From: Ectocarpus siliculosus | Lineage: Eukaryota; Sar; Phaeophyceae; Ectocarpales; Ectocarpaceae | DNA length: 47,404 nt | Assembly (NCBI GenBank): GCA_000310025.1 | Contig: FN649730.1 | Location: forward strand, 1,745,633-1,793,036 | Direction: 5' to 3' | Shown: piece after piece, positions 605 to 41,100 of the stretch | Layout: the number at the start of each line of letters is the position of its first letter | Numbering within the stretch: position 1 is the stretch's first letter | The notes under the pieces: model-generated | Told to the model about the DNA's origin: nothing | What the model saw: only the letters and a program-made list of their open reading frames with translations | Database searches by the model: none | Program-made: the position numbers and the translations under genes

Positions 605-806
605 TTAACTTTTTACCTGGCGGGTTCCCGGCGCCCGAACGGGATTTGACAGGTCCGACACCGTGTTCGCGCGCTTGACCCTCACGGTAGCCTGCGAGTC
701 CAGTCCCCAACGATCCATGTCGTCGATGTTGTTCGCGGAGAGAGACATGGGCTTGCCGCCTCCTCCCGATACGCGTGGTCTCGGAGGGGGGTCAAATTCC
801 ATGTCG
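605..806 (-). CDS. Single exon of an unrecognised protein (partial gene)
   Basis: On the minus strand a clean acceptor (CCCCGCCCAG) ends at 807 and an open frame runs from 806. It either stops at a TAA ending at 605 or is cut at a donor (CAG|GTAAAA) after 617. The roughly 63 residues include KPMSLSANNIDDMDRWGLDS followed by a basic, Ser/Thr-rich stretch (VRVKRANTVSDLSNPVR). Codon choice is GC-rich, as in the certain exons nearby. Phase at the acceptor is 2 and at the possible donor 0. I do not recognise the family; the composition suggests a disordered tail or linker. The upstream exon was not found, because the preceding intron contains repeated acceptor copies. The gene would lie downstream of, and on the same strand as, the nitronate monooxygenase gene. 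Confidence 0.45.
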
Positions 807-1106
807 CTGGGCGGGGATAAAAAGTAGAATTGTTGAAGGACCAGGCGAAAACAAGTAAAGTTTTATTGTACAGCAGTCCAACTCCATGTCCCTGGGCGGG
901 GAAAAAAAATAGAGTTGTTGAAGCACCAGGCGAAAAAAATCGAGTTTATTGTATGGCCAGGTCGTAGGAATACGTAACTTTGGGAGGCAATTAAAAAAAT
1001 ACCGAAGCTTATACTTAAAATAATACAACATACAGCAGTCGATCTTCATGTCCTGGGGTGAGGAAAAAAGGGAAAAAGAGATTTGTTGAAGGACCAGGCG
1101 AAACCA
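797..1106 (-). repeat. Three copies of an acceptor/exon-start segment
   Basis: Read on the minus strand, three units share a pyrimidine-rich stretch (CGCCTGGTCCTTCAACAA, then T-rich), a CCCAG acceptor, and the first exon bases GACATGGA. The AGs fall at 808-807, 893-892 and 1054-1053. The first is the acceptor of the exon at 617-806; the other two are decoys followed by sequence that does not stay like the exon. The unit also carries CAGCAGTC at 871 and 1033. Confidence 0.75.
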
Positions 1107-1787
1107 AATCGTTTGCTAGGGTATCAGAGAGTGCCAGGCGAAAACAAAAGGTTCGGGTGGACCCCCACGCCTCGTTCAGGCAAGTTGTGGATGGCATGTG
1201 ACATGAAGAGCGTGTTCACGTCCGCCTTACAGTGAACGACTCTCTCTCACCCATCCCTAGGACGAGATGAATGCGTCGGAGTACAGGCAAACATGTCAAG
1301 CTGCCCATCCCTATCGAAGGCACACCAAAAAGAGATACGTCAAACGTGCCTCAGCACAAGACACGGATCTGAGGAGATCTAGATCTAGGGTTTCTTCGTG
1401 TATCATCTGTAGAAGGGCGATCCCCCTGCTACCGTGCATGGGCCGGCGTGCCCCCTTCGCTCGTTAATGGCAAGGTCCTTGTGTCTGTAACGATGAGCAT
1501 TCACTGCCGAACGACATACAAAAAAAAAAAAAGGTTGAGAATCAACAGTAGATACAGTCGAAAGATGCCGAGGGGAAGTAGCCGAAGTAAAAGCAATTAT
1601 AAGTAGCACAGGAATCACTCACAAAAAAGTGAAAGAGAGAACCAACGTTGAGAAGCAATGCAGCAGCAGGAGGGGAGGGTCAGCAGCAGAAGCAAAACAC
1701 ATTCACTCAATATGTAGCATGTGCCTGTAACCCTTCACACGACCAACTATTTAGACTTACTCTCACGCTTACGTTCATCGCATCCAC
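1107..1787. other. Spacer downstream of the nitronate monooxygenase gene
   Basis: This is non-coding as far as I can tell. It should contain the 3' untranslated region of the minus-strand gene that stops at 1788, and possibly the 5' part of the next minus-strand gene. The only notable local feature is an A-run at 1519-1531. Open frames here show no recognisable protein. Confidence 0.5.
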
Positions 1788-4700
1788 TCACGTTCTGAGT
1801 CGGTTGACGATGTCCAGCTGCTCCTCGGCCTCCCTGGCGACGTCCCTCGTGATTTTTTCAGCCGCGTCGACGGAGTAGATCAGACCCGCACCCTCCCCCA
1901 TGTACACCTTCGCGATCTTCGAAGCGAGAAAGAAACAGAAGCAAGCACCAAGACACAAAAAATTCGGTTGTTGTCCTATGTACAGACGAAACAAACTGAT
2001 TCTAAAAAGTATTTGCATTGTTATTGGCAAAGCGGGGTCACGATCAATGCGCCTTGTGTACCGCTTCCATTTACACCTTTCGCGATCTTCGGAGCAATAT
2101 TTCTCATAAGCAAGCGCACCAAGAAGTGAATAAACAGGAGTGTAATAGTGGTAACGTGCGTTGTTGTTGGAATTCTGTCGTTACGATCAATAGACTCGTT
2201 GTACCGCGATCTATGCAGCGATCTCCGTCAACAAGTTGGTCAAGGGAATCTTCATTTTCTAACACAGCAGCAGTGGAAAGTAAAGACTTGCCGGCAAGTC
2301 CGATTAGAACTTGATGTACAGTACCACGATTCAAGTAGCGGCGTCCGTCGACATGTCGGTAGAATGAAATTCATTCCCGACACAATGAAATTCATACTAA
2401 ACACAACAGTGGGAAGAAAGGCTCACAATCAAGTCCGTTTAGAAATCCAATGTCCCACGATTTAAGCAGGTGTCCGTCGACAAGTTGGTCAACGGGAAGT
2501 TCAAATCTAACACACTATTCTAGCAGTGGGAAGAAAGGCCAAGGCTTACCGACAAGTCCCTCGTCCTTTCCGCGTCTTCAAGCTGCGCCGTCGGCCTCGA
2601 GTGGCCGGTCACGCCGTCCCTATCGCAACACATCACGCATCATAACGAACGCACACAAGGGTAAACGTGTGTCTCATATTCAAGAACTGACCGGTGAAAA
2701 GACGTTAATCTCCGTGCGGTTGAAACAAAAAGTGCTTCTAAGGCCATGAGTTGGGACCCCATGATGTTTGTGTGTGTGTGTTGCTGAAATCGACGTCGCC
2801 AACTGGCTTACCAAAGAGAGCACAGTCGTGCCTCGCTTAAGGACACCAAAACTCCCCCAGTTAAGGACAACTCTTTTTCGCAGGCATGGTGGCTCGCAGA
2901 ATGTACAACATACGGAGGGGTATCAACCCTAAGGACATTTCCCCGCTTGAAGGACCCTTTTTTACAGCAAAAATCCAGGTGTGTATATCTTTACCCGAGG
3001 TTGGACTGCTCCACCCCAGCTTTTGCGAGGAAAAAAAATCATATCGAACGTGTGTGAATCTTCAGTTGGAATCGACTGCGCCAATTCTCTGACCGAAGGC
3101 AACACGGCAGTCAAATATCGCGATAAAACCGTGCACACAAACTACTTTCTAGTCGTCGGGCACCCCCAGCGGGGGGCGCACGCGGAGGAGGTTGTACAAC
3201 AAATTCTAGTCTCCCAGTTAACACTACGGGGGAGGGGGGGGGGGGGTGTACTCATACTTGTGCATGCCGTAGTCGTTAAAACATTGACCCCCCACCCCTA
3301 CAAAGCCGGGACGGAACACGTCGGGGTCCCACCGGACCAGGGTCTCACATCACCAAACGCGAAACGCCCTGAGGTATGCGGCGAGTCCCATGAAAGGGGC
3401 GCTGCATCCTGGTAAGGGTGCTCGGCATCTTGGGCTTACGAATGACAGCTGCGTATGACTTAATTTATTTTCTAGTGCTATCACGTCCAGAGACAGTTAT
3501 AAGTACTGTGTAACTGCCTCGAGGATGCTTGACCATTTTAACATAACGTGGTGCGATCATCCCCTTTGCGCGGAGTGAGGCTTCTCGACCCCGTACAACA
3601 TGATCTATTTGACCACCAGTCATGGTTACCGCAAAAAAAAAAACAGAGGCAAAAAAAAAAACCGGCAAACTGGTTGCCGAGTTCACGAAGTGACAACGGA
3701 GGGGGGAGGTAAATCGAAATAGCGTGGGTATTGGGCATGAATGCTACAAGTGAGTCCTCCGGAGTGGGCTCATGAAAGCACAGTGTCACCAAGGGGTGAC
3801 GCAAGATGAAAAAAGCAGGCAGCAGAACCTGCCCTCAACGGCACAAAAACCCTTGACCCTGTACGGCGAACACCGGCACCTTGTGTCTCTCCCTCACCTG
3901 ACGAACAGGTCCTCCTTCCAGCGACAACTCTACCCCAACCGTTGACTTCGACTAACCACACCAAAACCTTGGATGCGAACAGCGCAGACCGGCACACACC
4001 ACCTCGAATAAACTACACAAGAGCCCTTAACCCTGTACAACACCACACCGGCAACGTTTGCGTCTCTCTCTTGATTACAACACCTGTCAGACAGGTCCTC
4101 TTCGAGCCGGGCCTCCCGGGTGTGCCACTTCGCCGTGAAGTCGTTCCAAGCCACCCCGCTGGAGTCGTAGGGCTCGGGCCACAAGACGGGGTTGTGTGGT
4201 CGGACCGCTGCAGCCATGTCGAACACTCGTGTCCTCACAGTCTCGTCTCCGCCTGGCCATGGGAGGCGGCATACGTTAGACACCACACCCCCCCTTGGGC
4301 TCGTCTCCGCGAGAAATTGAGGTTATGAGGGAATGGAAGAGGGAGGAGGTTGTAAACAGACCCTAGCCCTACTCCCCCAACTGCATACATTATCCAACAT
4401 GTTTTCTTGAACGAAAAATGTTGCGAAGGCCATTCTTTCTTCAGTATAACGCAATACAACGAATCCTCCATCTCTATCCACAGATGAAAGTCCAGATTCT
4501 CAAAGTGCGGTTGCTCTGCGGCACAAACGGCGGTAACGGTGCCAAAAAAAGGCTGGCGGCGAAGGAACCGTCTCGAACAGAGCTTCCGAAAACGCGCCTC
4601 TTGATTGCGGATTTCTCTTCATCGTGAAGTAGTCGAGCTTTGAAAATCGGTCCACGCGGTGTTGCAGTGTCTTGTGCAACATGCAGTAAGTTGTGAAAAG

Positions 4701-10687: not shown

Positions 10688-10723
<36 letters not shown>

Positions 10724-13025: not shown

Positions 13026-13997
13026 CGCTTTCGCCGGCACCTTGTGAACCTGGCGAGGGAGTACTCCAGTGCTGGCAGTACCACTGCTGCTGGCCGCTGT
13101 GTGTGGCGTGCCGCAGAGGCAGCCCCAAAGATGCCAATTTTTTCTGGGTTTCGACGTGGTATTCGGAGGCCGACATTGGCAGGGTGTGCCAGTGTTGTCT
13201 GTCGGTCTTGTGGGCTGGCCTTGCACTTACCAGCCCGGGAGCAGCGCACGCTGTGCCGTGTCTCAGTCACCAGCGTACGCACTGCACCGGGTTCCTCACC
13301 ACAGCTCGATTCGAGGGCCTGGGACACAAGGAAGTAACGGCCACTACTGCTGTTTCGCAGGTTTGATTGTATCAGATTTCGGGACGCGGCAAGACGCGGC
13401 CCAATTTTCAAACCCCACGTCGTCAGCTCTCGTGCTGACAGAGGAGAGGGCTACAGAGCGTGGGGTCGAGGCTGGGATCACACCGAAGAACACTCGGACA
13501 GCTCGTCCTCTGCTGTACGGCAACCCTTTCTCATCTCTTGGGGTTGCCGCTGGAAAATTCTTTGTTCGAAGCATGCAAGATCCCGTAAGCCCGGTGCTGC
13601 TGCCTCGGCCTACCACCTACATGTTCTCCGGGAGGCACAACATGAGCCGCACGGTTGGTTCTCGCGATAGCAGTGGGGACGGAAGTTCGCCGCCTCCAGA
13701 AAACTCGGCCCAAGCTCTTGCAGCGAGTGAAGGTACAGGGAGCGAGCGCTGCGGCGATCTTTATACAATATAGCGGCAACCTGAGGCGGGGTGCTGCGTT
13801 TTGCCGATCTGCTTCTTGTGCTGTGCGTATGCCATCCAAAGGCGAAAGAACCAATGTTAATCGGTCGTCTTTTGAACCACGTTCCTCGGATCTTTCACAC
13901 TAAACACTCTAACTCCCCCCCCCCAACCCCCACAGCCTGCCCCAGCTTCGCCTGCAATCAAATACGTTTTTGATACGGGGATGACGGCACCGAGGGC
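13026..13997. promoter_or_regulatory. Shared upstream region of the divergent pair nitronate monooxygenase / METTL23
   Basis: The 972 bp between the two start codons must hold the promoters and 5' untranslated regions of both genes. The real METTL23 start may lie inside it if a further 5' exon exists. Open frames on both strands show no recognisable protein. I see no TATA box or other clear core element. Confidence 0.5.
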
Positions 13998-16900: not shown

Positions 16901-18069
16901 CTCTTGGTCTACCACGGACCGTGCGGAATGGAGTCTATGGGACGGAGCTCGATATTTTTTTGTTGAAACGCGAGTGGCACCTGCTGCTGCATCCCTCTCT
17001 ACTTCGCCCTTCCATTCTCCATCGGACCGGACCTCAAAATTCTCGAATCAACCCCCCCGCGCCCCCTCACTGCCGTGTGTAGGGCTCGCTTCTCCCTGGT
17101 ATTTTTTGTATGTTGGCTGGCGCCGCCATGGTCGTGAAGGATATTTTCATTTGTCCCGTGCCACCGCCCCCGCCACAGGTGGTGCTAGGGGCAGACGTGT
17201 TCTACAGCTCGGAGCACTTTAACGATGTTCTGGCGACAGCGTTCATGTTGCTCTCTGGTTCGTCCTCGATGGCGCCCACTGCCGGGGGCGGCGGGTGTGC
17301 GAGTGGAGACGGCGACGGCGCTACAACTTCCCCCCCACCTAGTGTTGCGGAGATTAGCTCAGCTGCTACCGGTGCTCCTTCATTCTCGATGCCTTACTCT
17401 GCTGGAGGTGGAGGCGATGTGATTAGAGACAGCAACGGCACAAACACCGCCCCTCCGTCTGTTGCTACTGGGACTACCTCAGCTGCAACTGGTTCTTCTT
17501 CCTCCTCGATGACGTCCACTGCCGGGGGCGGGGGCGGGGTGACTGGAGACGTCGAATGCACTGCAACTGCCCCTCTGGCTAGTACTACAGGGACTAGCTC
17601 AGCCGTCACTGATGCTCCTTCGTCCTCGATGACTTGCGCTGATGGAGGTGGCGACTGTGCGAATGGAGACGTCAATGACACTACGACTGCCCCTCCGCTT
17701 AAAACCGCTACCGGAACAAGCTCAGCTGCTGCTCCTACAGCTCCTGAGACCACCCCACGGGGTCGTGATACCGCAGGGGGCGGCGCTGCATCCCTTGCTG
17801 GTACCGTTGGCTCTGAGGGGCAACGTACTTCTTCCGCCGAACCAGCTGACACCACACCAACGTTCGGGAGCCCTTTCAGCAGAAGCAGAGGCGTGTTTCT
17901 CACGGCCTACCAGGAGCGAAGCGCGCGGAGGTCCATCAGACCCTTGCTGAGGAAGTGGGGCATGCAGGCCAGGGTGCTCCGTGACGCCCCGCAGCGGGTG
18001 CTCCCTCCCGCCCTCTGGGAGAGCGGTCGCTACGACAGCGTGGCCCTCCTCGAGATAACCTTGATGTAG
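13998..18069 (+). CDS. METTL23: METTL23-like methyltransferase with long low-complexity insertions, 4 exons
   Basis: This is a seven-beta-strand SAM-dependent methyltransferase of the lysine-methyltransferase-like group; human METTL23 is reported to act on histone H3 arginine. Modelled exons are 13998-14867, 15359-15505, 15830-16213 and 17179-18069, joined in phase 0, giving 763 residues. Recognisable parts are DFGLFTWPSGVVLA (295-308), SAM motif I VVEIGAGTALPGLLAAK (323-339), LGASVVLTDREEAPWVLENM at the start of exon 3, QGLSWGS, VVLGADVFYSSEHFNDVLAT (468-487), and a C-terminal FLTAYQER and LLRKWGMQ. The family is usually near 200 residues. The extra length is a 290-residue disordered N-terminus, an Ala/Gly/Thr-rich insert in exon 3, and four 40-residue repeats in exon 4. 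The first exon is the least certain: the start may lie elsewhere, an acceptor-like TCTTTGCAG ends at 14054, and the exon 1 donor (AAG|GTTTAT) is weak. Confidence 0.8.
16300..16520. mobile_element. Short inverted-repeat element (family 1), copy C
   Basis: The left part has ACATCACGCACCCTGGAGCG and TTTTTCAAGGCTCGATTATT. The right part has GCCTTGAAAATCGGTCCAGG followed by GGGTGTGATATCTTAAG. Between them are the family's GGTGCCGAAAATAGCGG and GGAACCGTCTC blocks. It lies in METTL23 intron 3. Confidence 0.7.
17266..17745 (+). repeat. Four 120-bp coding tandem repeats in METTL23 exon 4
   Basis: Units start with TCGATG at 17266, 17386, 17506 and 17626, an exact 120-bp period that encodes 40 residues each. 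Each unit reads SM-x3-A-GGGG..., then an acidic/Thr stretch, then T-x-APP, then T(G/E)TSSA. The reading frame is open throughout. The array sits between conserved beta-strand blocks of the methyltransferase fold, so it should form a long surface loop. Confidence 0.9.
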
Positions 18070-18869: not shown

Positions 18870-20695
18870 CTATTTGCCGCTCTTTGGCTCGGCAGAAGCA
18901 GCAGCAACACGCTTCTTTTTCTTCGATCGCGATTTGCTCGGCGTTGTCAACGGCCCTCCCTTTCGGGCCTTCTTGCGCCCACCGCCGTTGCTGCTGCTGT
19001 GGGTGCGTCCTTCGCCCTTGGACTCTCGCTGACGGCTGTTACGCTCCTTGATTGAGGTCTCTCGCTCGTCGAACCCCTGGTTTCCGGAATAAAAGGGGCC
19101 GGTGAAGGGAGAAAGGTTAACGTGACCATCGATCGGGCTAGGCGCACTTACTGTTTTTTGTTTCGGCCACAAAGACGAAAAGAGGCAGTTTGAAACGACA
19201 AATCTTTCCTATTCCTTGACTTGATACTAACGCGATCCTCGTTGCGGAAAAAGTTAAGTTTGTTTGTTTCTGTCAGAAAAACCAATAATGTACTTTGAAG
19301 TACAAATTTTGTCAACCGAAGAAAACTCTTAGAAACGAATTCTTCCAGAAGGCGAGGTTGACAAAGTTTGCCCCTGGGTGGAAAACCGCTTGCAAAGGGT
19401 ACGGCATCACAAGCTATACATGCATAAGTTAAGCGCGATGGTTCAGCACTTGGCAGCTGCGCTCCGAGGCTTAGGCTGAATAATTCAGAACTTGCAGCAC
19501 ACCGTTCTGATCACACCCCGAGAGCCTCATGCAAACCAAAAGCCAGTGACGCTGTCCGTGTTTCGCTTGTCTGAGAATCCCACCTGTTCCATGAGACGCA
19601 TCCTTGCCACCCTTGAAGCCTTTGCCACCTGGTTGAGCAGCTTGAGCACGTCATCCTCCTCCACCTCGGGACAAAGCCCCAGAGGGGTGCCCGTGTACTG
19701 CTCGATGTTGTGGACCAACTCGATGTCGTACTGTGGGTGTGGCAAATCGGAGGGGGGGGGCGAGTACTCGTGTTTCGCATGCCCTAGCGGTTATACCACG
19801 CGTCCTCGAGAGGACGGAGCACTGATAGCGGGGAGAAATGAGATGAAAGCCGCAACGTGCTGCAACAAGCAACTCCCCAGTCAGCGCCAACGCAGCCAAA
19901 AAGACTACGACGACTGATACTGGGGGTATCGCACACAGAGATAGAGCGGATAGTAGAGGGGGTGAAAATGGCACGGAGTCGCGGAGCGCTGCAGCAAATA
20001 TTACCTACCCAGGGCCGAAGCAGCCAATGAGACGAAGACGATTCAACCTCCAGAGACTCTGCTATCACTCATTGGACACAACAGTACACCACAAAAAACA
20101 AAACGAACTTTTATCGTGCTCGCATCGGGCTAGGCGTGGCAGGTTGATGTTGAGGTTTTGATTCCAAAAAAAGAACATGCACCACGCACATGTCATCCTA
20201 TCTCTCAATTGGCTGGCTGTTCACTCTCTTGAAATTCCCTTTCACCAGTCATCTCATCCAGTTCCCTCTACCAGCCATCTAACCACACCATCCTCCCTAT
20301 ACTATTACCAATTGCCGGCACCAACAACGCCCGCTAGGGCACATGCTCCACGCGGCCACGAGAGCGTTATCTTACACCAGCACGTCAGTCACGACGTGTT
20401 CCAAGCTACATATCGCTATTGCACACGAAGCAAGGCGGTTCCGAAAATGAGCAAGCAACACCCTCGTAGACCAAACAACTGATACTCCCCAACTATCTTG
20501 TTTTTACTACATTATTTCACCTGTGACACCAGGGAAACGGCGCGGCCCCGGCGGCCAGCTCGAGCGGTCCTTCCCACCCGGTGGACATAGTCCGTGGCGA
20601 CTCTTGGCACGTCGAAGTTGATCACCAGGTCTACCGCGGGGATATCCAACCCACGGCTGGCCACGTCCGTGCTGATCAAGACCTTTGTCTGCAAT

Positions 20696-20739
<44 letters not shown>

Positions 20740-23700
20740 TAGGCGCGTGCGTTTCTGTAGAGGCCACGTCCGTGCTGACTTCAGACTTTCGTCTGCAACA
20801 ACACCAACAGCATAGCAGCAGCAAGTATTTGCGTGCGTTTTCGCAGCGGAGCGTCCTGCATGCATACGCGACGACTGCGGGGTGTTGAGTCGTCTCGAAA
20901 CAACACGCCGGGATTCGACCCCAAAAACAACTATCGGGAGTTCCTTGAGGCAGGTGTGGGGGGGTGCGGTGGGGGCGCGTATGGCGATAACTAGTCCGTC
21001 GCTGTATCTCCATTTCACTTCACACGCGCACACACATCTACCAACACCCAAGAGGACCTATCGCAATGTGATTGCTTGTGGGCGGCTGGCGAGTTGGATA
21101 TGACATGCCTCCCCTGCGGAAACAAGGGACGGCGGCAACAGGTGTGTCCCAAACCACAACGAACGGCAGTGTCTGCCGTACCGTTACTCGAGGAGCCGGA
21201 CAACCACCTCATCCTCGGCAACCCAGCCCGGGGGAAGTCAATACCGTGCGAATCTCGGTTGTGGGGAGAGACAGACAAAAAAATCACCGAGATAAAATTC
21301 GCGCACCCGCGTGACTTGAATTGTGATCATTTTGCGCACCTGCTGTGACTTGAGTTGTGACCATTTTGCGCACCTGCTGTGGCTTTGAATTGTGACCGTT
21401 TTGCGCACCTGCGGTGACTTGAATTGTGATATGTTGCGCACCCGCTGTGGCTTGAATTTTGACCATTTTGCGCACCTGCTGTGACTTGAATTTTCCCAGC
21501 GCCGCTGTTCTACGGCGCTGTCCCAGCAACGAGTGCAGGGGAGTGCAATCCACTCCCAGCTCCACCAGGGTCTCGGACAACTCTTGGCACCTGGAGGGGT
21601 GGGGAACAAGGGGTTTCGCGACGTTGTCTGTCGGTACTACTGCCGTCTTCTTTTTCCTCCAACTGCCGAATTTCTTCGTGTGTTGTAGGCCTGCAGTCCG
21701 GATTTTCTTGACTGCAAAAGGGAGAGTTCCGACTTGAAGGTGTATGTTTCCCTCTCGGCGGAACTGGTGTTGTCATCGTTGCTGATGTTAATTGTCGTCA
21801 CAGCAAAACCCTTTCCAGCCCCGGCTCATTTTACCTCCTAATGTCCGTACCGGTGCAACTGACGTGGACACCTGTCGTGGTGACCACGGCACCACTACCC
21901 ACAGCAGGGGCCAAAGAGCAAAGACAGGCATATCATCACCACAAGCTATACGCACAACAGCAACAATGATGAGGACTACAACAGCAGCAATGACGATGAC
22001 TACAACAACAGCAACTGTGACAATACAAACGACAACAACAACAACAATAACAACAGCAACACCGCCTCACTTGCGACACTTGCTGACGAAGATCATGACG
22101 CTGCGCGCTCTCCCGTCCCCATCCCCGGTCCCTTCTTGCCCTTCATCGGCTTCTGGGTTGTCGTGCAACCCCCCCGCGCCCCCCCTGCTCTTGCGGGTCT
22201 TCCTGTCTGCGGGGTCGCTCCAGAGGTTGTCCGAGGCCAACATGTTAAGGGTCTGCCGCACGCACGCAAGGCACCGAAAAAAAAAACATGAAAAAACAAA
22301 ACAACAGCCAATCGAATGTTACTTTTTGTCTTTGGGCCAAGGGAACGGTCTGTTCTCTACACAAACACGAAAAATGCGGAAGGTAAGGTGCCAAGTCTGT
22401 CGATGGCTATGGAAGACTAGGGTAGAGTTCAAACCAACTTGTTCAGGGGTCACTTGCGTTTGGCGGTCTGGCGAGGGGCGGGGCAAATGCATCCTTGGCG
22501 AAACAATCGAAACAACGCCTCAAGCGACCCCCGAACCATAAGAACAGGGTTCGAACGGAACACAAAAGCTTTGGAGCTCGAAAGGAAGGCGAAAGAAGAA
22601 CGACTCTGACTCGAGGGCATTGATGTGTGTCCAACGCCTGGCAGAACCAGCGCACACGTGCGTACGATGACAATTCCACTTGAAACAGAGGGAGCAGGCT
22701 CGAAAAAAAAGCACCTGAACGACAAAGCACGTCTTCATCTGCCGGGGCATGAACAGGTACTGCTGCGTCAACGTTTTCGGCACCGTCGCCTGCAACGACA
22801 GACCAAGTGGAACAGCAATCGACGTCAGTGCGGGAGGGGGTTACTCGAGATGATTGGCGGCGTGCGTGCACCAGCCTGTTTCCACAAAGGACCGTCTGTG
22901 TATTGCAAGAAAACAACCGTGATGACATGGAATGGTAGCGACCACACCCGCGGCAGTACAACAGCAATGGCACCTGCGTTTATTTAGCAGCAAGAACAGA
23001 AATCATAAAAAAAAAAAAACACCAGTAACCGGCACATCACAACAACCTCGACAGCACCAAGGTAGCACTGCAATAGTAGCAACAGAGCAGCAGTGACTAC
23101 AACCACAAAAAAAAAAAACACAACAACAACAACAACAACAACAACAATAACAACAACAACAATGCCATTCTTGCCGTTTGTAGTCTTTCTCACCACTTTG
23201 AATCAGATGCCCGGCAAAAAAAAAAATGGACCGCCTTCGAGAGATACTCAGTATCATGACGAAATAGAACAGGAAGGGGGTCCGCAGACCCTATTCCCTA
23301 ACCCTAACCCCAACTTCCCAGATTTCGTTCTTTATCCAACACGTTTTCTTAATACAAAAGCCCTGCGAAAGCGACTGAAAAAAAAATCCACACCGCCGCC
23401 CAACGCATCACCTTCTTGGTGAGGTCATACTTGACCGGGTTCGTCAGGGCCAAGGCCTCCAGGGCTTCCAGGTTGGACGTCATGGTGGCCGAAAACAGCA
23501 GGGTTTGCCGGGAGTTCGGCAGGGTTTTTGGGATACACGGGAGCTCCCTACACAGGGGGGGGGGGGGGGGAGACATACACGGCACCACCGACCATCGTCA
23601 CGTACACTGCTGCGGTCGGAGCGTGACATTTTGAGCATCACACGCCACGCTGTGGGGTTGGTCTGGTCAAAGCGGTGGGGTGGGGGGAGAGGGAAGATGT

Positions 23701-26700
23701 AGATTTGGGAAAACCTCTTGACATGATCATCACCCCCCCAGAACGGCTCCATGATGCCTCAGGAGGGTTCCCGCCCCCATGGTCCGGTGCATAAGTTCCG
23801 CACACACAAAGCAAAGAAGAAACGATCAGACAATTGCATGCAGAGCGCGTCGTGGTGAAGAGGTTGCTCGAGGGGAGCTCTCGTCGGAACGTTACGCTAC
23901 AGACACACTCGTGACCGATCATCTGTTCTGTCTGCTCTTTCGTGTTTGGTGCGTGTTTCACTCCCTCTCGCCCTGCCTGCTTGTCACTACTTGTATCTGA
24001 CCCGCATTTCCACCCATCGGCATAGCGGTCTAGAAATACTACCGTAAGAGGCGCAAAGATGGCAACCCCCCCAGACCGATTTTCAAAGTTTGATAGCACC
24101 CCAACAAACGTGGTTTTTGAAACAGCCCGTCGTGGTATTTCCGTAGACGTATCGGGCTCTTTCCGCACCCTCTTGGCTGTGGAGCAATCGAGCTTTGAAG
24201 GTCCGAAAACGGGGGGTGCCATCTCTCCGCCTGTCACAGCCGTCTGGAAATACTACCAGCAATGTGAGCACCCCCCCTCCTGACAATTCCATCACCGCTC
24301 AAGCTCGGAAAGCTGGCACAAGGTACATCATGAGCATGAGGATGTACTGCGATGTACTTAGAACAACTTTGCCGTCTATCCGCCGCCTCTCTCCTCTCAC
24401 CCTTCAAATGTTGGTGCAAGGAGACGATCGGCTTCATCCAGAACCAGGTACCTGCCACGGTAGAGGAGGAGTCGGATTGTTTTCGTGTATTTCTTCAAAC
24501 TATTTGCCAAAATTTGCATCGACAACACAAACCGACTGACCAAAATGAAAAAAAACGTCAGTTTTCGTGACGGTATACATGACTATTCGTGCGTAGAAAC
24601 AACGCTCCGTCCCCTTGAGGACGCGTGGTCAATGGTCTAACCGTCAAGGTATGCCATACCAACATGAGTACGCCCTCCCCCCCCCTATTCGCGGGCCCCC
24701 CAATATTTCCTGTGTGGAAACCCCAGCGTCCTCCGCTACAGCTTTGCGGGGGTCTAATGGAACAAGGCGAGAATAATGTCACAGGAGTATAAACCCCCCC
24801 ATTTCTCACCGACATTTTGCCAAGGCCGGCGCAGCCGGTCCTTGCAAATGGTCGCGCAGCCTCCCTGGGGTCGCCACTACGACGTGGGGCCGTCCTTCAA
24901 TAAAGGCAGAGAAAGGAACGCGGAAGGGCAAGGAGAGAGCGAAGGTCATCATCTCCAGAAGGAGCGTTCGGTCGAGAGGAGGGTCGGATACACGAGAGGC
25001 TTTACCCCGTACGGCGTTCGAAACGGCAGCGAGCTCCTGCCTAGAAGACGCCGGCGAACGATCGCAGCCGCGTCCTCAAAAGCTCTTGGATGCTGCTGCA
25101 TCTGTTGGTGTGGCTTCCTTCCTCGAAACGTCTGGCACGAAGGTACAAGACAGGCTAAAGGCGCTCGGCAGGACCATGGCCACCACGGGCGCACTCAATG
25201 TAGACTATACACTCAGCGGCGCCGGATCATTCCTCCATGAAGGAAGCGCCTAAACGAGGACACCAGAGTGGGTTGGCCAGCGAGCCAACGACTAACCATA
25301 CACACGTACACCCCTCTTCGATGCGTTCCGGCATCTAAGACTATACAAGGGGACAATGACACTGCATACAATCGCACACATACATGGACGTACGAGAGGT
25401 CAGTTATCATAACCACATGAACACGGGTGTGTCAGAAAACAACGCAACCACTGGAGGAGTGCGACCCAACAACAACACCACTAGAGAGCGCGCAGCGCAA
25501 GTCTAAGCGAGTCTGCCACCAAAAACCGGCATAGTTTGAAAAAAACGGTGGGAGGCAAACTGCACAGACGTGGGCTCAGACGCAGAACGACTCAGGCGAA
25601 GGGCGGGCATCCGACGCACCTGACAGTGCCAAGCTCTGCTCCAAGATGCCGACGCCCCCGATGACCACGGTGTGGCGCAGTCCCATGAGCGCTCCGAGGG
25701 CGCCGAACTGTTCCGAAATCTGAACCGCTAGCTCTCGCGTGGGGGTCAACACGACCGCGAACACCCTGCACGCGATACAAGGACGTGCGATGTTGGCGCG
25801 TGAAAAAAGAGGGAGGCAAACTGGACGTGGCGTAAGTGTGCTGCGTGTTCCGACAATACAGCAGTGCAATTACCGTGGTTTGCAGCAGATACCACACCCC
25901 TTGGGTGGGTTCGCTTTTCAAGCTCGGAAGAGGATGGCCAAACCAACGTGGTGCAATTTCGGAAAGCTCACGAAGAGGCGATTCCGACGCCATCATTTTC
26001 GGCAACACTACTCTTTTTGCGGCAGAATAGTCGAGCTTTGAAAAACAGTCCGAGGGGGGTGGTATCTTATGTAACGCACGGTACACCCAACACGAACAAA
26101 CGTAAACCGATTTCCAGTCCAGCATATAGGTTACCCCATGTTGACCATCTTAGGTGTGTACTGCTGTTCTTCTTTTTTCCTCTCTCGCGGAGATCAAGGC
26201 CAGACGCAACTTGCTTCGAACCGCGACGGTCCCTTGTGCCCCCCTCATCAGTGAGGGTCCTTGTTGAGCTCAACCGAGATGAGCAGCTACGGCAAGGTGG
26301 CGTTGTGCCCTGCACCCAACCGATCTTATCTCCACAACCCCACGCCGCAGTCAACTTAATCACGGCCACGTTTCGGCGACGCTCCCCTTCCCCTACGCGG
26401 GAAGACCACCATAAAACACTGCCGTTTCAGCTCCTCACCCGTAGGGGTCCTTGCTGAGCTCGTGAAGTATTGGCAGTGCAAAGGCAGCGGTCTTGCCGGA
26501 ACCCGTTTCCGCACACCCCAAGACGTCCTTCCCTTCTAAAACCTGACGGAAAGAGAGGGCCCCGGGATAGAAAGACAAGGCCGGCAGGGTTTCAACGAAA
26601 CACGACGAGTTTTTGTGCCTGGAGAAAGGGGATTGGAAATGTTACGAGCAGGTTCTTCTGTATTGTGCCTGGTATATTGGTTGCCGTACGGAAACTGAAG

Positions 26701-29610: not shown

Positions 29611-32600
29611 ATGGCGTCCCGGAAGCAGGAGCGTCAGCTCCAACAGGCCCGTGAGGCCGGGCAGATCGAGCCCGAGATGGACACGGAGACAGGTGCGACA
29701 TGCTTGTGTGGAAAATGTGGTAAAGTTGCTTGTCATGCCGGTTGATCATAGCGCGCCCGAGGACTTTAGTTGTTCCTTTAAATCGCTTTGGGACGACTTG
29801 CAGGAGCCTCATTGCTGTAAGCAAGAGTTGGCGGAGAGTGCGAGGTTGTTTGATTCGACTCTGTTGTCGCTTCTCGCTTTCGGGTTCTTCGGCAATGTGC
29901 GACCGAAATCGTCGCCGTGTCATGAAAGCTCACCAACCCCAAAAAGACGACATGCTGCTGTACATATGAAAAGCAATGGCCTCTGGTGTGTCATGACTAT
30001 TATGTAACAGTCATGACTCAAGATACCACAGCGTCTTAGGTAGACCAATTATCAAAGCTCCGTCACATTGCAGAAGAGTAGCAACTGCTGTGCCGAGAAT
30101 GGAGACGTTGGGAACATCTCGTCGAGAGCGTTCCTAAAACGTATCATTTTATTTGGGCAGCTATCTCTTGGTCGTGGAAGTAATCTAGCTTTTCAACTCG
30201 GTTCATGGGAGACGTATCATTTGATTTGGGCAGCATCTCTTGGTCGTGGAAGTAATCGAGCTTTTCAACTCGGTTCATGCCAGGCTTCCGCGTCAGTTGG
30301 AGCCGTTACTGATGTTAGAAAGTACTTGGTGACGAAAACAACAACACCAACAACCATGTATGTGGTATCCTCCACCGCAGGCAAGATGATCAACCCCCAT
30401 AACCCGGAGTTCATCACCAAGCGGCCGTGGTACCTGGGAGAGTCCGGCCCTTCCCTGGTGCACCACAGCAAGCAAAAGGTTGACGCCGTGCTTACCATGA
30501 AGAAGGCGGACGAGCTCGTGCAGCAGCGCTGGGCTACCAAGAAGAAGGCCGCCACGGGGTATCGGAAGGTGAGGCGCCGGGCGGATCGATGCGTATCGGG
30601 ATATACAGAAGCGTCGAATTATAGGCGTGTAGCAGGTGCGTCTACTGGGCGTGGTTGTTTGCTGTTGTTGTCGTTTCATTACATGTATCGGTGACAAGGC
30701 CGGTGATGGATGATTTTCGGCAGGGTTATTTTGGGAGGGAGGGAGGGAGGTGCTCAACCCCACTTTGGAGTTCGTGTACTGCTGTGTGGGGTTACAGCCG
30801 TGGAGTTGCAGCCGTGGGGTTGCAGCCGGGCTTACCCTCTTTAGGACTCCCCCCCCCCCCCCCCTCCCAGCAAATCACTTACGAATCCGCCAAAAAACTT
30901 CCCCCGTGCGGTGCAGGGTGCCTGCAAGAACTGCGGCGCGATGGGACACAAGGCCTCCGAGTGTGTGGAACGGCCTCGGAGCGGCAAGAAGGCGGCGATG
31001 AAGACGGGGATGGACATCGCCGCGGACGACGTCCAGACCGACCTCACTTCGCACGGAAAGGTGTGCTCGTACGGGGCCGCCTTAACGAAGATATTATTGA
31101 TCTAAATATGGAATAGAGAGGGGGGGGGGTTAAGTAGGAATTGGAGAGGGGGAATCGTATCCCTATTCCTAGCCCTAAAACCCAACTCCGTACCAACTAC
31201 TAAAACCAAGCTGAATGTTCTCGCCGAGGCTACTGGCTGTATGTGCCGTGCACGTGTCGAGTGTTGTTGGCGGCGTAGTGGGCATGACGTGCATACAGCA
31301 CAGGCCACGCCAACACCAACATTACCAACATCACCAACATCGCCAACACCACCACCAACAGCAGCAGCAGCAGCAGCAAGAACTGTGTTAAAAAATGTTT
31401 TTTGTTTGTTTCGCCCTGCACAGGTGTCCTTCGACGCGAAGCGGGACCGCTGGCTGGGCTACCACCCGGATGAGCACAAGCACACCATCGAGCGGTTCAA
31501 CAAGATCGACCAGGAGAGGAGGAGGGCGAGGAGAGAAGATGCGGAGAAGCAGGAGGAGCGGAGGAAGGTGGGCTTGAAGGCTCTTTGGTCGATGGTCGAT
31601 GGTAGTCATCTATGTAGAAGGTCTACGGAGATTTGGGGGGGGGGGGGGGCTTTTTAGGGGGGGGATGGTTTTGGGGGGGGAGAAAGGAGGCGGAAAAACA
31701 GGAGGAACGGAAGAAGGGGGGCTTGAAGGCCCTTTGGTCGAAGGGGGATGGGAATCATNNNNNNNNNNNNNNNNNNNNNNNNNNNNNNNNNNNNNNNNNN
31801 NNNNNNNNNNNNNNNNNNNNNNNNNNNNNNNNNNNNNNNNNNNNNNNNNNNNNNNNNNGCCTTAAAACCAAATTCCTTACAAATTATAAAAACAAAGGTA
31901 AATTTTTTGGCGGAGGTTACTGGCTGTATGTCCCGTGCACGTTTCAATTGTTTTTGGGGGCGTAGTGGGCATGAGGTGAATACAGCACAGGCCACGCCAA
32001 CACAAACTTTACAAAATTCACAAAAATGGCAAACACCACCACAAACAGAAGCAGCAGCAGCAGCAAGAATTGTTTTAAAAAATTTTTTTTTTTTTTTTCG
32101 CCCTGCACAGGTTTCTTTGGACGGGAAGGGGGACCGCGGGTTGGGTTCCCCCCGGGAGGAGCAAAAGCACACCTTGGAGGGTTTAAAAAAGTTGGCCCAG
32201 GAGAGGAGGAGGGGGAGGAGAAAAAATGGGGAAAACCGGGAGGAGGGGAGGAAGGTGGGTTTAAAGGTTTTTTGGTGGAGGGTGGATGGTATTCATTTAT
32301 GTAAAAGTTTTAGGGAATTTGGGGGGGGGGGGGGGGCTTTGTAGTGTGGGTATGGTTTTGGGTGTGGAGAGAGGAGGCGGAGAAGCAGGAGGAGCGGAGG
32401 AAGGTGGGCTTGAAGGCTCTTTGGTCGATGGTGGATGGTAGTCATGTGTGTAGAAGATCTACGGAGATTTGGGGGGCGGGGCTCCGTAGTGTGGGTATGG
32501 TTTTGGGTATGGAGAGAGAAGGCGGAGAAGCGGAGGAAGATGCGTGTCTTGTGGACTCTTTTGGCCAATATGGTAGTCATCTGTGTAGAAGGTCTACGGA

Positions 32601-35600
32601 GAGTGGGAGGGGTCGGGGGGCTATGGATGTATTTTTCGTAGATGCATTTCTTTGGATAGCACACGGGATCCTTCCCCTATCATGAGCTCCCTTGTACAAT
32701 CCTTTCTCTATCTTTGTTTGGATACCTAAGTGGGCTTCATGTGTGTGATCACTCAAGCCTAGTACACCGTCAGCCCCTTTCTGGAGATGGTGCCCTGGTG
32801 AGTATGGATCAGTTGCCATTTCCCTGGCAAGCAAGCAAGTCGATTGGCTCCAGGAAATCAAACGCGCATCCTCTTGTTTATAGTTTCGGTAGCGCGCGCG
32901 TTTCATGTTTGATGGCATGGAAGAACGGCCACTGTAGCGTGAGACATTGTGTGTGTTGTAGATTGACAGCGTGGCTGCGGCGTGAAAGTATGGGACTTAT
33001 GTTGCAAGACTGATGCACAGCGTGGCCGCGGCGTGAATTACGAGATTCACGTTGCACACTGATGTATGGCATTTTTTTTTTACCCCTGGCCATCCACCTC
33101 ACCCCTTTACCGCTCTCTCGCCCTGATCACCTGAGCAGGCCAAGGAAAAACTGCGGGAGATCAGAAAGGCCGCAAAAGCCGCAGCAGCGGCGAAAAGCGG
33201 CACAACCGGTGTCGGTTCGGCGTCCAACGGGGGAGGCGCGAATGGTACCGCTTCAGCGAGCGGCGGCGGTGCGAACGGGACCGCTGCTGTGGATAGCGAT
33301 GACGACGACAGCGATGTTGCCGGGGGAGGTGAGACGTCGCTCGACGAAATCAGCCGTTCGACAAGAATCAACCAAAAAATAGACGTACATAACTATCAAT
33401 TATCAATGGCGACATGTGGGAGGGAAGTGTGCCGGGTAAACATAGTTCATGGCACGTACAATCATGGCATCGACATCATGAGAAGCACAACATTCCGGGA
33501 ACTGTAATAGTCGGGTTTGGTTTCCCGATGAGTTTATTCATGGCTCTTCTCTTATGTTGGCTTGCCATCGGCTGCTGACGTATGGCAATGGACCTCGGTA
33601 TGGTATCTTTGCTGACACGTTTTTTGTGTCCTTCTGGTGGAAGTGCCGAGATACAGCGGCTGCTTGTACCGCCGTACTTACGTGAACAAGCCTATTTTTT
33701 CTCATGTCGCCCTCTGCTACATATTATTAAAGTATGATTTTACACACAAAACACATACGCACCCACAGGCAAGGGCAATGAGAGCGAGAAGGACAGCGAT
33801 GAGGACACGGGGTCGGACTCTGACGCTTCCGACTACGACTCTGACGAGGATGGGGGCTCCGAAGATGAGGACAACCGGGAGTTCGTGCAGAAGGACGTCG
33901 AGCAGAGGGATTTCCAGGCAAGGGCGGCGGCGGGGGGGAGCAGCATGTCAAATGTTTTTGTTGCAAGCTTTTTTTGGCGTCATGATGTCTTGGTGGAAAA
34001 GAAGTAATGCCACAAGGCCGTACGGGTTTTTTCGTAGTGATGGTGCGGATGGATTCATGCGGAACCATGTGGAACCATGTGGAAACCTACAGGAGGCAGC
34101 TTTGGGGAGCGGGGGCTCAGTTGCGTGTTTGACTCGCCCGCGCGGTCCCGACCGTACCAGGCAGCAGCATCTCACCCACCCGTAGATTCATGCCTCTCAT
34201 GTGTGGTAACATCTTTGTGCGCGTGTGCGTTTGTAGAGTTTCGGCGTGGCGAAGAGGCAACAGGGGTTGGTGGTATCCAGACGAGGACGAATGCAAGTTG
34301 TTCTTGACAAGCAGTGGAGTCGTTTCCGGGGTCGATTGGCCCAACAATAATGACCCCGTTCGGTGCTTCGTAACCAACGCTCTAGAGACCGAGTGGGTCA
34401 GCAACGGACGGGGATGTCGGCGCTGCCCAGAGCGTAGGAGACACCGCCGTGAAATCAGTAGACAGATATATCAGGAAAAAGAACGTTGATTTTTGATCGA
34501 CGCCATGTTTCATCACATTTTCGCTACAAATTCCTTTTTTTCCGGAAAATAAAAAAAACAAAACAGTTACATGTCTATGCACAGAATTGAGTCCAGAAAG
34601 AATTAGCGATTAATCCGCAGATATGAGTCCAAGACACGTTTATCAAATTGATTCATAGTGCTGTGCATAATACTTCCGTGCCTGAATACCACCCAACCCC
34701 TACAAAAAAACAGGGTCGAGTGGCCCGGCAGGGTGGTCTCGGTGGTGCCCAGATGAAGACAACTGTGCGAAACCTGCGTATCCGAGAAGACAGGGCCAAG
34801 TACCTCTACAACCTCGACCCCAACTCGGCCTACTACGACCCCAAGACGCGTGCGATGCGCGACAACCCCATGCCCGAGACGGCGGCGGAGGACCTCGTCT
34901 TCGCTGGAGACAACTTCATCCGGTAAGTTGATTCGTTGTGGAACATATAAAAGTGTAATTGTGTGTTTTTAGGAAATGGTCGGTCTGTTCGGGTGAAGCG
35001 GTCGAAAGCTGCTCTGAACAGGTCGAAAACAGAAAAACGGCTGGCTCCCCGAACAAGTCTCCAGACCTAATAGTACACGTCTGAAACTGCTGTTTTTACA
35101 CACACAAATCTGCAGCTGTTGTTTGAATATACACAATCAAAGAGAGTCCACCCGTTCGAGACATTACGATATAACCACATTCGAAGAGTATTGGCAGGAC
35201 CTTAATTTTATTTGATTGGCATCCATCGACCGCGCTAACCGGCTGACAGAGGCCGTAGGTAGCGGGGTAGGAAAGCAAGCATCCTCTGTTAGTCATCGGG
35301 GGGAAGGTTGGACACCAGGGCCCAGTCACCCGGTTCGAAAATGCGTGTCTAGGTATTTTTTTGTGTTGTGTGGTGTGGTTACCACTTCATCCGGTAGGTT
35401 GTGGGTGTATGGGTACGTCTTTGCTGTTGGCATCGGCTGCGCTTTTTTCCGGTTGAAAAATGATGAGACGTCAGTCTCGGCGCCCCAACAAACAGAAAAC
35501 GCTTGTAAGGCCATGCATGCTCTGTGTATCCTAACGGGTTGACCAATGAAAACGCGTCAGTCTCATTAGTGTGGCTAAAACGGATCACGCTTGTCATGGT

Positions 35601-38109
35601 TTGAGGGGTAGTCAAGGGGGAGGGCTGCTGGGCTATTCCTCCGAACTGTGCGTGCATGTTCCTGTTGTTCGCATCGACCGTTGTAGCGGCTGACTATTAG
35701 TGGAAAGACGCCAGCCTTACAGATTGCAGAAGTTTGGATAACGTGAACGATGTAAGTTCCCCGGTGTTTGTGAGAACCACGCGCCTAGCCTGAGGATCGC
35801 GCCCAGCTGCTGTCCCTCCGCACTACACTGCGGATCGCAACGCGTTGCGCGCGCATACGTAGGCCACCGTATGCGCGTGTTCCCCGTTTGTTGTACGGGC
35901 TTGCCCATGTCATATCTGCAGCGTCTCTCCCGTCAGTTGATGGCGCTCGTTACGTCAGCGTGCCAGCTCAGAGTGGGCTGTGCCCACGACACGGCAGAGC
36001 TGGTCCTGCGTTACCGCTGTGCTGTGCGCAGCCCCCCCGCTCGCCCCTCTTCCTGCCCCTTCCACTTTTTCCCTCTTTTCCCGTGGCCTCTTCCTAGACA
36101 GTCTGCCCTTGTCCCGTGCGTACCTCACGACCCCCACAACCACTCCGGGGAATCACCCGTTTTACCGCAGCAGACTGAGGGATCAACACCCTCCAAGCTT
36201 GTTCGAGAGTTCTTGCACACCCTTATCTGGCGTCAGCAGCACCCTTTGTCAAGTGAGCTGCACCTTGCTTGTCAAGTCAGCCACACCTTGTCACCCAACC
36301 TCTTCCGCTCTCGTTCAGTGTCCCAACATGTCCTCCTCCGACCACCCAACATCTACAACCACCTACCTCTCTGAATCGTCGGAGCGTCGTGGATCACCGG
36401 GTTCGAAGCCGGCACCCCCGGGAAAAAACCGGCTTTCCTCGGTGATTCCGGCTTCGCACCTGGTGATGCACGACGCTCCGACGGTTCAGCCAGGTAGTTG
36501 AAAAAAAACGAAAAAAATGTTTGGATCGTCGAAGGACGACATGTCGGGAGACTGAACGAGAGCGGACAAAGTTGGTTGACAAGGCGCCAGGCAAAAGGGG
36601 CGCAATAAAAAAAACATCATGCACTCTCGAACGGACTGGAGGGTGTCGATCCCTCAGTTCCTGTGCTAAACAGGCGATTTTTTTCCCGTGGTCATGGTTG
36701 TGGGACCGGTACGTACGGGACAACGACACATTCACTAGGAAGAGGCGACGGAAATCTGGGAACAGCAGGGGAAAAAGTGGAAGTGACAGGCAGAGGGGTT
36801 CTGCACGGTACAGAGGCATGCTGCAGAACCACGTCATCTGGCGTGGGGTAGACGCACGCCACCCTGGGCTGGCACGCTGACGTAGCGATCGGCAACAACA
36901 ACCGAAGGGAGAGCCGCTGTATGACGTGGCGAGATACGCTTTGATTGGATGAGACCGTGCAACGGACGGGGTTATGTCGGAGCACGCGCGCACAGCGGTG
37001 GCATGCGTAGATGCGCGCGCGTACAATACGCGTTGTGGTCCGCAGAATATAGTGTGGACTGACAGCGGTTGGGCACCATCATCCTCAAGCTAGGGAGCGT
37101 GGTCCTCGCACAAACACCGGGGTACTCACATGATCACGCAAATCTAGTCATCGGGCCCCCGGGGGGGGGGGGGGGGCGCGGAGGAGAGCTGACTTTTGTA
37201 CCGTGTGTTTCGGGTTGGTTTGTGTCATGACGGTTAAATTCAAGTTTGGTTGGTTGTGTCGGTGCGCCTCGTGCGCAAGCGCGCACTGCCGTGGTGTAGG
37301 CATACGTGTATGTACAGAACAAACTCGCCCGCGCTTCAGACCAGAGGAGTTCAGAAACTGACCCTAAAAAAAATCAAATGTTTAAGAACTTGAGCACGAT
37401 TTGTGAGGTCTGGTATGGTAAGATAAGAACCCCTACACCAAAACCTATGTAGCCATCATTAACATTCGTAGCATGACCCTAGGAATACGGTAACAACCTC
37501 AGCCTCGGCCGAAAGCATAATATTAATAGAGGTTCTTACGTTCCGATGTTTTTTTTTTTTTACCGACACACAACAAATTCATCTCTTCCACAGAGAAGAG
37601 TCGGGGAATTAGCAACGAGTGTATCCATAGCGTTAGCGGGCACTACCAGGGTTTCTACAGTCCCCCGAGCAGCATATCTATGTTTGTTTCCGTCGATGCC
37701 GAAACACGCCTCATTTTTTGTTTTTTTTCGCGACAGTTACACCGGCGACGTCCGGGAGCAAGCTCGCACGTCGGTGTTCGCGTGGGAGGCGGCCGATCGC
37801 GGGCAGGAGGTGCACCCCGTAGCGGACCCCAGCCAGGCCGAGATGCTCAGGAAGAAGTTCGACGACAAGAAGACCACTCTCAAGGAGGTGCGTAGATTTT
37901 ATCGTCAGGATGTGATGGATTCATGTGTTGTTCTTGTTCTTGCTCTTGTTCTTGCTCTTGTTGTTCTTGTCGTTGTCGTTGTCATTGCTGTTGTTGCTGT
38001 TCTTGTTCTCGCTCTTATTCTTATTCTCGTTCTTGTTCTTGTTCTCGTTTTTGTTCTTGTTCTCGTTTTTGTTCTTGTTCTCGTTCTTGTTCTTGTCCTT
38101 GTCCTTGTA

Positions 38110-38144
<35 letters not shown>

Positions 38145-41100
38145 CGTTGTTGTCGTTGCTTTTGCAGTTGCAGTTGCAGTTGTCGTCATTGCCGTCGTTG
38201 TTGTTGTTATCGTTATCTCCCGGTCTTTTTTCCTTACGGAGGAACACCGCCAGCGGCGTATCCTGTACATCCTTGACGAGTGCACGGACAGAACCGAACA
38301 GGGCAATGCTTCTCATGAAACAAGCATTGGGTTCAAACCACATTTGGGGGAAACGGCATCGGGTGCAAACCCCACGGGGGGGAACCACCATTGGGTGCAC
38401 ACCACGTTGGGGGGAAACGCCATTGAGTGCAAACCCCGTTGGGGGGAAACGCCATTGGGTGCAAACCACATTGGGGAGAAACCCCATCGATTTCGGTAGT
38501 AGTGCTGCATGGATGCTAACTCAAGTCTCCCTGACGTTGCTGCTGCTGTGTGTTGCAAACGCCATTCCCTCTTGGGCCAATAGGAGCAAAAGCAGCGCAT
38601 CCTCGACAAGTACGGAGGGTCGGAGCACCTGGACGTGCCGGACGCGAGGCTGCTGGTGGGGCAGACGGAGAGCTACGTGGAGTACGACCGCACGGGCCGT
38701 GTCGTCAAGGGCGCGCCGAAGGTGATTGATTGTTTTGATTGATTGGCTGATGATGAATTTCGACCCGCGCTGGGCTCGACTGGAAACAACGTAGTGAGGT
38801 GGTTGGCTGGTGTTGATCGGGGCGACTTCGACCCGCGCTGGGCTTGACTGGAAACAACGTAGTGAGGTGGTTGGCTGGTGTTGATCGGGGCGACTTCGAC
38901 CCGCGCTGGGCTTGAATGAACAGTAGACTGCGTCTTGAGGTGATTGGCTGATGATGACCGGGGCGATTCCGACCCGCGCTGGGCTTGACTGAACTGTAGA
39001 CAACGTCGTGAGGTGATTGGCGGGTGGTGATCGTGGCGGTTTCGACTCTACGTTGTACTTGAATGAATAGGAGCAGCAAGCACGAAGCAAAAAGTGGCCA
39101 AATCGACCCGACCGGCTGCTTGACTGGACTTGGTTGAGAACAGAAAACCACGCAGGTAATGACAGGCCTCACGACTACGGCGTGCGTGGGTTTACATGAG
39201 TACACACACAGACACACCCTCGCTGCTGTTGCCTCGTTCGTCCCATTGACATTTCGTCTTCGCTCATAATTTGTCCCGCCGTTGCACTTGCCGCTGCTGT
39301 CCTCTCCCGGGAATCGGATCGAATCGGATACGCGCAGGCCGTCGCGAAATCTAAGTACGAAGAGAACGTGTTCCCGTCGAACCACACGTCGGTGTGGGGC
39401 AGCTACTTCGACAAGAGGTCGATGAGGTGGGGCTTCAGCTGCTGCCACTCGCTCACGTTCAAGTCGTACTGCACCGGAGAGGAGGGGAAGGTGAGGGGCT
39501 TGGCTTGCGGTGTAACCCTTGACCGCAAGTTCACATTTTGTTTTTGTCGTGAAGTCGTGCGGTAACGTGAGGTCTCGGATTGCCGTGTAGCCCGTCCCTT
39601 ACCTCTTTTTGTCGTACAGCAGTAGTCCCCGCTTTAAGGGCACCTAAACTAGGGGCACCCGATGCTTGAAGGAAGAAACTGTTTGTCCGAAGCATGGTGC
39701 CCCGCAGAATGTAATATACAGAGAGGGGTATCACTTGGGGGGACACTTGCCCACTTTAATGACACTATTAACATGAATGACCAGAGAGTGTCCTGAAAGG
39801 GGGGACGACTGCGTTGGGGGGGGGGGGGGTCGGCCACTTTTCTGCCCTTCCGCGGGGTCGCTAAATCAGATTGACTTGTGAAATGCGAGTGACGATCAAT
39901 AAACGGGACCACGTCGATGTTTTTTACAGCCACGTCACCCTTTGTTGTTTCTTCCGTGTGTGTAACTGTGATGGTGCGACTGACGATCGATGAGTGGATG
40001 CCAGTACGATATTTTTGTTAACTGTGGTAGTGGGACTGACGATCGGTAGAAGGGACTACGATAATGTTCAAAACTGAAAGTGCGACTGACAATCAGTAAA
40101 ATGGCACTCTACGATAATGTGTTCAACAGCCATGTCACCCTGTTGTTGTCTTCGTGCGTGTGTGTAACTTGTGAAGGTGCGCCCGACGATCGATCAGTAT
40201 ATGGCGCTGCGATAATGTTTTTTATCTGTGAAAGTGGGACTGACGATCAGTAAAAGGGACTACGGTAGTGGTTTAGCTGTGAAAATGGGACTAGCGATCC
40301 TTAAAAGGGACTATTATTCCATTATGTTTTTTACTGCAATGTCACCCCGTTTTTATTTTCGTGCGTGTGTGCAACTTATGAGAGGGCGAATAATGATCAC
40401 AAGATGGGACTGCGATAATGATTATTTACAGCAATGTCGCCCGTTTGTTCTCTCCGTATGTGTGTGTGATGATGATCAGTAAATGGGACTGCAATAATGA
40501 TTTTTACAACAATGTCACCACCCATTTGTTGTCTCCGTATGTGTGTGCGAGAAGGTTGCGAACGATGAGGCCAACTCTGTGCTCAACGTCGACCTGGCGG
40601 GCGAGCGGAAGATGCTCGAGGGAAGAAAGGAGGGGGAAGCGTCCAAGGTAAGATAAATATAATAGCAGTGTCTTCTCGAGCACTTGTAGATGATGAAAAA
40701 AACTCTTGTTACGTTGCGACTTTTTTCCAAAACCAAGTTACCAGTAGAGTTTTCATACTTTTTTCTCGATCTCATTCTTTGTGTTTATTTTTTGCAAGGG
40801 CGAGTGATTAAATGATTGTTTTTCATCTCAAGGGGGAGTCAATGGATCATAGCATTTGATGGTAGTTTGTTTCTCTCTTCTCTATTTTGGCACTTATTCC
40901 TCTACGTGTGTGGTTCTTTGCATCCCTGTACGTGTGTCTGTTTTTGCAGGTGCCGGAGATGACGGCACGATCGGACCTCTACGGAGAGGGTACGGCTAAC
41001 GTTGACCTAGACGAGGACAAGCTCAAGGAGGTAACCTACGGTTCTTGTCGCCGTTGTCGTTAGGCTGTTGTTCTGTCTGTTGTCATCGTCATTGCTATTT

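Follow-up and report, generated by a model that had tools for sequence, protein, structure and literature searches.

Genes and gene models at the locus

The window, by which we mean the whole 47,404-nucleotide stretch of Ectocarpus siliculosus DNA analysed here (contig FN649730.1, positions 1,745,633 to 1,793,036), carries four intron-rich spliced genes:

8408 to 1788, minus strand: nitronate monooxygenase (NMO)-like gene, start not found; Pfam and PDB match
13974 to 18069, plus strand: methyltransferase-like gene; Pfam match
28370 to 18870, minus strand: DEAD-box helicase gene; Pfam and PDB match
29611 to 42789, plus strand: SLU7 gene; Pfam and PDB match

Searched as spliced models, these genes gave Pfam matches to Slu7 (E=2.5e-87), NMO (2.7e-24), DEAD (1.1e-44), Helicase_C (5.2e-26) and Methyltransf_16 (3.9e-10), and PDB chains matched three of the four (SLU7, 2.6e-118; NMO family, 6.3e-15; DEAD-box, 3.4e-68), while a Pfam search of ten raw, unspliced open frames found no match at E 0.01. 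The source genome (189 Mb, 492 contigs) holds at least 150 scored matches to the EsV-1-7 motif family, out of 880 candidates. This fits a brown alga, the family being typical of that group, and none of the 14 control genomes gave a match to it.

The gene models are gene-finder output that was then corrected by hand for frame, with phases checked by eye. In their final form they comprise 35 introns, one of them ending at a placeholder, with a mean length of 755 bp. Of the junctions 69 were scored, a set that excludes the 806/1792 pair and the helicase acceptor preceding exon 27207; the placeholder intron 27401-28224 was kept in the intron-interior control of the window. Regions aligned by homology enclose 20688, 21476, 38721 and 40555, four of the nine junctions to which a preliminary description of this DNA had drawn attention. 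Donor 31567 lies five residues beyond the point where the SLU7 alignment stops, acceptor 1916 and donor 2550 fall in a match that is collinear with the main NMO match and by itself non-significant (i-Evalue 160), and donor 4084 and acceptor 806 are placed by prediction and reading frame only. Homology is also lacking, for example, at donors 28225 and 14867, at junctions 33139 and 33328 of SLU7, and at the final introns of the helicase and methyltransferase-like genes.

The SLU7 gene has an apparent GC donor (CAG|GCAAGG) instead of GT at 33918-33919, with a frame that fits the homology-supported next exon at 34714, and a 2.8-kb intron in which nested inverted repeats (35750-37131; six pairs, arms of 26-67 nt, centre near 36430) look like a fold-back mobile element. 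A dispersed fold-back repeat of about 210 bp lies at 42220-42440; 40 of 2107 first-look candidates were scored, its own copy included, and all of those listed pass. Sequence like it is seen by eye near 9390, 16330, 24080 and 25910. In the methyltransferase-like gene, a 120-bp repeat in 3.7 copies (17259-17698) lies within the last of the predicted coding exons.

Local duplications at splice junctions

The preliminary description held that nine exon-intron boundaries are copied in tandem, and for eight of them, 4084 being borderline, a recognisable second copy does lie nearby, in that a same-strand copy could be aligned through the junction, on both sides and above chance; the claim is not borne out at donor 38721. 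Two duplicated donors that had not been listed, at 34922 (score 17) and 26439 (score 19), were also found. The features concerned are as follows:

791..1107, minus strand: segment of acceptor 806 in three diverged copies; the exon downstream is ab initio only
1898..2095, minus strand: acceptor 1916, NMO-like gene; second copy at 2067-2095, about 170 bp inside the intron, with a retained but weak AG
2200..2564, minus strand: donor 2550, NMO-like gene; diverged intronic copies
3837..4095, minus strand: donor 4084, NMO-like gene; borderline copy 186 bp into the intron, with an adjoining repeat pair
20659..20801, minus strand: acceptor 20688, DEAD-box helicase gene; copy at 20762-20801, AG kept
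21298..21492, minus strand: donor 21476, helicase gene; about six tandem copies of a 33-35 bp unit, including five GT-bearing decoys
26243..26461, minus strand: donor 26439, helicase gene; second copy 190 bp inside the intron, its GT no longer present
31524..32611, plus strand: donor 31567, SLU7; tandem array of units of about 149 bp, broken by an assembly gap
34910..35401, plus strand: donor 34922, SLU7; second copy 471 bp inside the intron, its GT still present
38759..39073, plus strand: tandem array of 73-bp units in the intron that follows donor 38721, starting about 38 bp in
39881..40550, plus strand: intronic array of diverged tandem copies before acceptor 40555

On the gapped through-junction score, which reached 18 at none of 356 shuffled positions, second copies are clear at 806 (34), 1916 (24), 20688 (27), 21476 (39) and 31567 (42) and moderate at 40555 (19) and 2550 (17). 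The copy at 4084 scores 13 ungapped and only 10 gapped, and is helped by the neighbouring repeat 3837-3895/4011-4070; its donor, CAG|GTGAGG, looks stronger than the real CAG|GTGTTG, and use of the copy would, judged by eye, lead to an in-frame stop. At donor 38721 no through-junction copy was found, the best gapped score of 10 being a common value in shuffled sequence, and the exon edge is not shown to be part of the 73-bp array. The segment at acceptor 806 gives the repeat pairs 791-854/876-939 and 869-935/1031-1103, with AG retained, by eye, in both other copies. At donor 2550 the scored copy lies 258 bp into the intron and has lost its GT, and a nearer copy is seen by eye. Of the copies at 40555, where the scored one lies 378 bp into the intron, the one with its boundary after 40176 matches across the acceptor and keeps AG, and another has lost AG.

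The description had also called the repeats local and unrelated between sites, which agrees with the repeat lists, where the units look different from site to site. With regard to introner-like elements, which would form one sequence family common to many introns, genome copies were sought for two junction regions only: 3900-4300 returned itself alone, and 31172-31567 returned 59 matches, most of them to the intronic, repeat-rich portion. SLU7 is a factor in 3′ splice-site choice, and that its own gene carries duplicated splice junctions is probably a coincidence.

A probable assembly duplicate in SLU7

Exactly 100 Ns occupy 31759-31858, inside the SLU7 gene, and they separate a repeat that stands apart from the others:

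31859..32445, plus strand: sequence beyond the 100-N gap, probably 31172-31758 assembled a second time; its copies are not to be counted

Apart from these two segments, the genome search gave no long match. They align over 587 columns with 103 substitutions and zero gaps; 50 of the changes are losses of C and 5 are gains. Based on 71 other local repeat pairs, which show 192 gap openings per 2329 mismatches, about 8 gaps would be predicted for 103 substitutions, and the probability of none is 2e-4. The simplest reading of this alignment is that a single piece of DNA probably entered the assembly two times, its bases being poorly called next to the gap. That the copies of 31424 and 31567 beyond the gap are an assembly artefact is thus very probable, even though one of 19 other pairs with at least 40 mismatches is likewise gapless; the artefact would cover the surroundings of these two junctions only, and so a part of the pattern. 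The second copies of the exon and of acceptor 31424 are best left out of any count. The copy number at donor 31567 is inflated by the gap-flank repeat, but the tandem unit of about 149 bp is real.

Junctions compared with nearby intron sequence

Local repeats abound in the window, which holds 55 pairs within 1.5 kb (self-comparison score 17) against 0.4 expected from shuffled sequence, and the frequency of duplicated junctions has to be read against this density. At an ungapped through-junction score of 13, copies were found at 10 of 69 junctions, a count that includes the probable artefact at 31424, compared with 126 of 600 positions drawn at random from intron interiors and 115 of 600 pseudo-splice sites, GT/AG-like but unused, in the window introns. 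Repeats from the blast-type self-comparison cover 7/69 junctions versus 3186/21057 intron positions (15.1%). When the junctions were rotated through the window, a test that drops the repeats at 31100-32700, including the real one at 31567, the 5/69 observed compared with a mean of 5.5, and 67% of rotations reached the observed value. The gapped score gave 11/69 junctions versus 94/500 intron positions at a cut-off of 16; at 14 the order was slightly reversed (17/69 versus 109/500).

Much the same was seen elsewhere in the genome, in 29 stretches of 10 kb taken at round coordinates from long contigs (30.5 kb of N in all; one stretch, L007, is entirely N), which yielded 195 junctions from predicted internal exons after those at predicted introns shorter than 60 bp had been dropped. 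At an ungapped score of 13, copies were found at 18/195 junctions (95% interval 5.6 to 14.2%), 111/1053 flanking intron positions, 45/640 random non-coding positions and 7/755 shuffled positions, so that the junctions lie slightly below flanking intron and slightly above random non-coding sequence, and local duplications in the sampled DNA exceed chance about tenfold. Gapped scores gave 18/195 junctions, 69/734 flanking intron positions and 4/356 shuffled positions at 16, and 33/195 junctions versus 111/734 flanking intron positions at 14. The rate was 7/90 with a stricter exon set, and donors and acceptors were similar both ungapped (10/96 versus 8/99) and gapped (13/96 versus 10/99). For the first 20 stretches alone, the comparison was 16/156 versus 70/758 (p=0.39), and for window and sample together, gapped and with 31424 left out, 28/263 junctions versus 163/1234 controls (p=0.31). 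About a quarter of the exons predicted outside the window may be false, judging from 19 in reversed sequence versus 80 in the first 20 stretches; by our estimate these would not mask a twofold enrichment. The two strongest outside matches, both in stretch L011, sit in an array, and the exons concerned are probably false.

No test made in the window or in the 29-stretch sample gave a significant excess at junctions, and enrichment over nearby intron, by which junction-spanning duplications would form a special class, was found neither in the window, nor in the sample, nor by rotation. The earlier judgement that nine of 78 junctions is a high figure therefore does not hold, since in both data sets the rate at junctions does not exceed the rate at ordinary intron positions. 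The preliminary description had itself named a lack of repeat enrichment over splice junctions as the result that would speak against its idea, and for this sample, as distinct from the whole genome, that is the result obtained. A view of splice junctions as true duplication hot spots could draw on the eight sites that proved real and on small, non-significant excesses in some comparisons. It is nevertheless very unlikely, because relative to nearby intron there was no ungapped excess at any cut-off from 13 up and no gapped excess from 16 up, and the gapped scores of junctions and nearby intron did not differ significantly in Mann-Whitney tests (p=0.16 in the window, 0.71 outside).

Intron ends and intron creation

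It had further been suggested that tandem duplication of AG|GT-containing segments both creates and lengthens introns. The lengthening is borne out, and the creation is unsupported. If introns had arisen in this way (the Rogers model), the repeats at junctions would be traces of the event and the surroundings of a donor should match those of the acceptor of the same intron. Among 94 introns (34 from the window and 60 from outside, the intron with unknown acceptor being excluded) no such match was found: none reached a donor-acceptor similarity of 8, where 0.55 would be expected from mispaired introns, and the mean similarity was 0.14, versus 0.10 for mispaired ends. In favour of such an origin, a canonical AG or GT is kept in the copies at 1916, 20688, 21476 and 34922, in one of the two copies at 40555, in the clean copy at 31567 and, by eye, in the copies at 806. 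The duplications here, however, involve one end of an existing intron, and the intron ends do not match as predicted; we regard creation by this route as most improbable and as largely refuted for these introns, although old events could have decayed past detection.

Decoy splice sites and the side on which copies lie

The notion that duplication keeps supplying spare splice sites is partly sustained, in that several copies are canonical but others have lost GT or AG. There is very little likelihood that the copies are functional alternative splice sites under selection: all five decoys at donor 21476 keep GT, three match the PWM score of the real donor and one of these (shift 102) keeps the frame, but four of the five would shift the frame if used, and at 2550, 26439, 31567 and 40555 some copies lack GT or AG.

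Relative to the site in use, the copies do tend to be found towards the intron. At a score of 15 this was so for 26/34 junction cases versus 42/88 controls (p=0.005; p=0.07 at 16 and 0.025 at 18), in a post hoc comparison from which L011 and 31424 were left out. The excess comes mostly from the window (12/13, versus 14/21 outside), and the 13 window rows are not all independent, 15505 and 15830 being one match seen from both ends. An intron-side excess is expected if the exon-side site is the one kept.

Discussion

Local tandem duplication of an intron end together with its exon is already known. In the potato case (PMC4974935), a local tandem duplication took in an intron end plus the first part of the exon that follows and copied the splice site, and a second, 83-bp duplication within an intron is also mentioned. 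The duplications described here resemble that case in spanning intron end and exon and in copying the splice site, but in potato the intron is new and its gain is backed by phylogeny, whereas here the copies lie inside existing introns. The same source describes the Rogers model of AGGT duplication and the ATP2A1 and fission yeast cases (PMC4974935), which share with our locus the tandem copies of a segment holding AG|GT; the introns in those cases run between the copies, unlike any of the 94 tested here. In Drosophila, novel intron positions have arisen through sliding or tandem duplication (PMC2891723), with duplicated proto-splice sites near introns as at our locus; those duplications, however, lie in coding exons and make introns. 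For Ectocarpus itself, autosomal introns have a median length of 524 bp and annotated tandem repeats make up 3.35% of the genome, in keeping with the long, repeat-bearing introns seen here, and the accessible portion of that study contains no treatment of repeats across splice junctions (PMC12477816). Among the papers listed on intron gain, intron expansion, internal duplication, duplicated splice sites and brown-algal introns and repeats, which include related cases, we found no survey of junction-spanning duplications in brown algae.

Since the copying of junctions does not exceed that of the surrounding intron, we think it very likely that the junction duplications reflect background local tandem duplication, with no special intron-making mode. 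Local duplications of tens to a few hundred bases are common in the non-coding DNA sampled and lengthen its introns; we propose that they then decay through point changes and indels. As introns are many, about one junction in ten is caught inside such a duplication, much like the intron positions near it, both in the window and in the 29 stretches. When an event crosses an exon edge and the exon-side site is kept, the mRNA would be unchanged and the variant, being near-neutral, might persist. The other copy would become intron sequence that may hold a canonical site, present in several of the copies described above and presumably unused. On sequence grounds, the splice site next to the exon is probably the one that continues to be used, with its copies surviving in the intron as decoys. 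Neither a preference for AG|GT nor the creation of introns would be required.

A practical consequence of background duplication is that counts of striking junctions need a local baseline: with a tenth to a fifth of intron positions lying in recognisable local duplications, junctions inside repeats are to be expected. It is also worth noting that the SLU7 gene probably contains an assembly error. More tentatively, background duplication could leave canonical decoys at up to about one junction in ten, and the intron-side excess could be the footprint of selection on splice-site choice, a possibility to which we give less than even weight. If it is true, the genome would offer thousands of natural test cases of a spliceosome picking the exon-side copy, and if the decoys are confirmed by cDNA, junctions of this kind would be a useful natural set for studies of splice-site choice.
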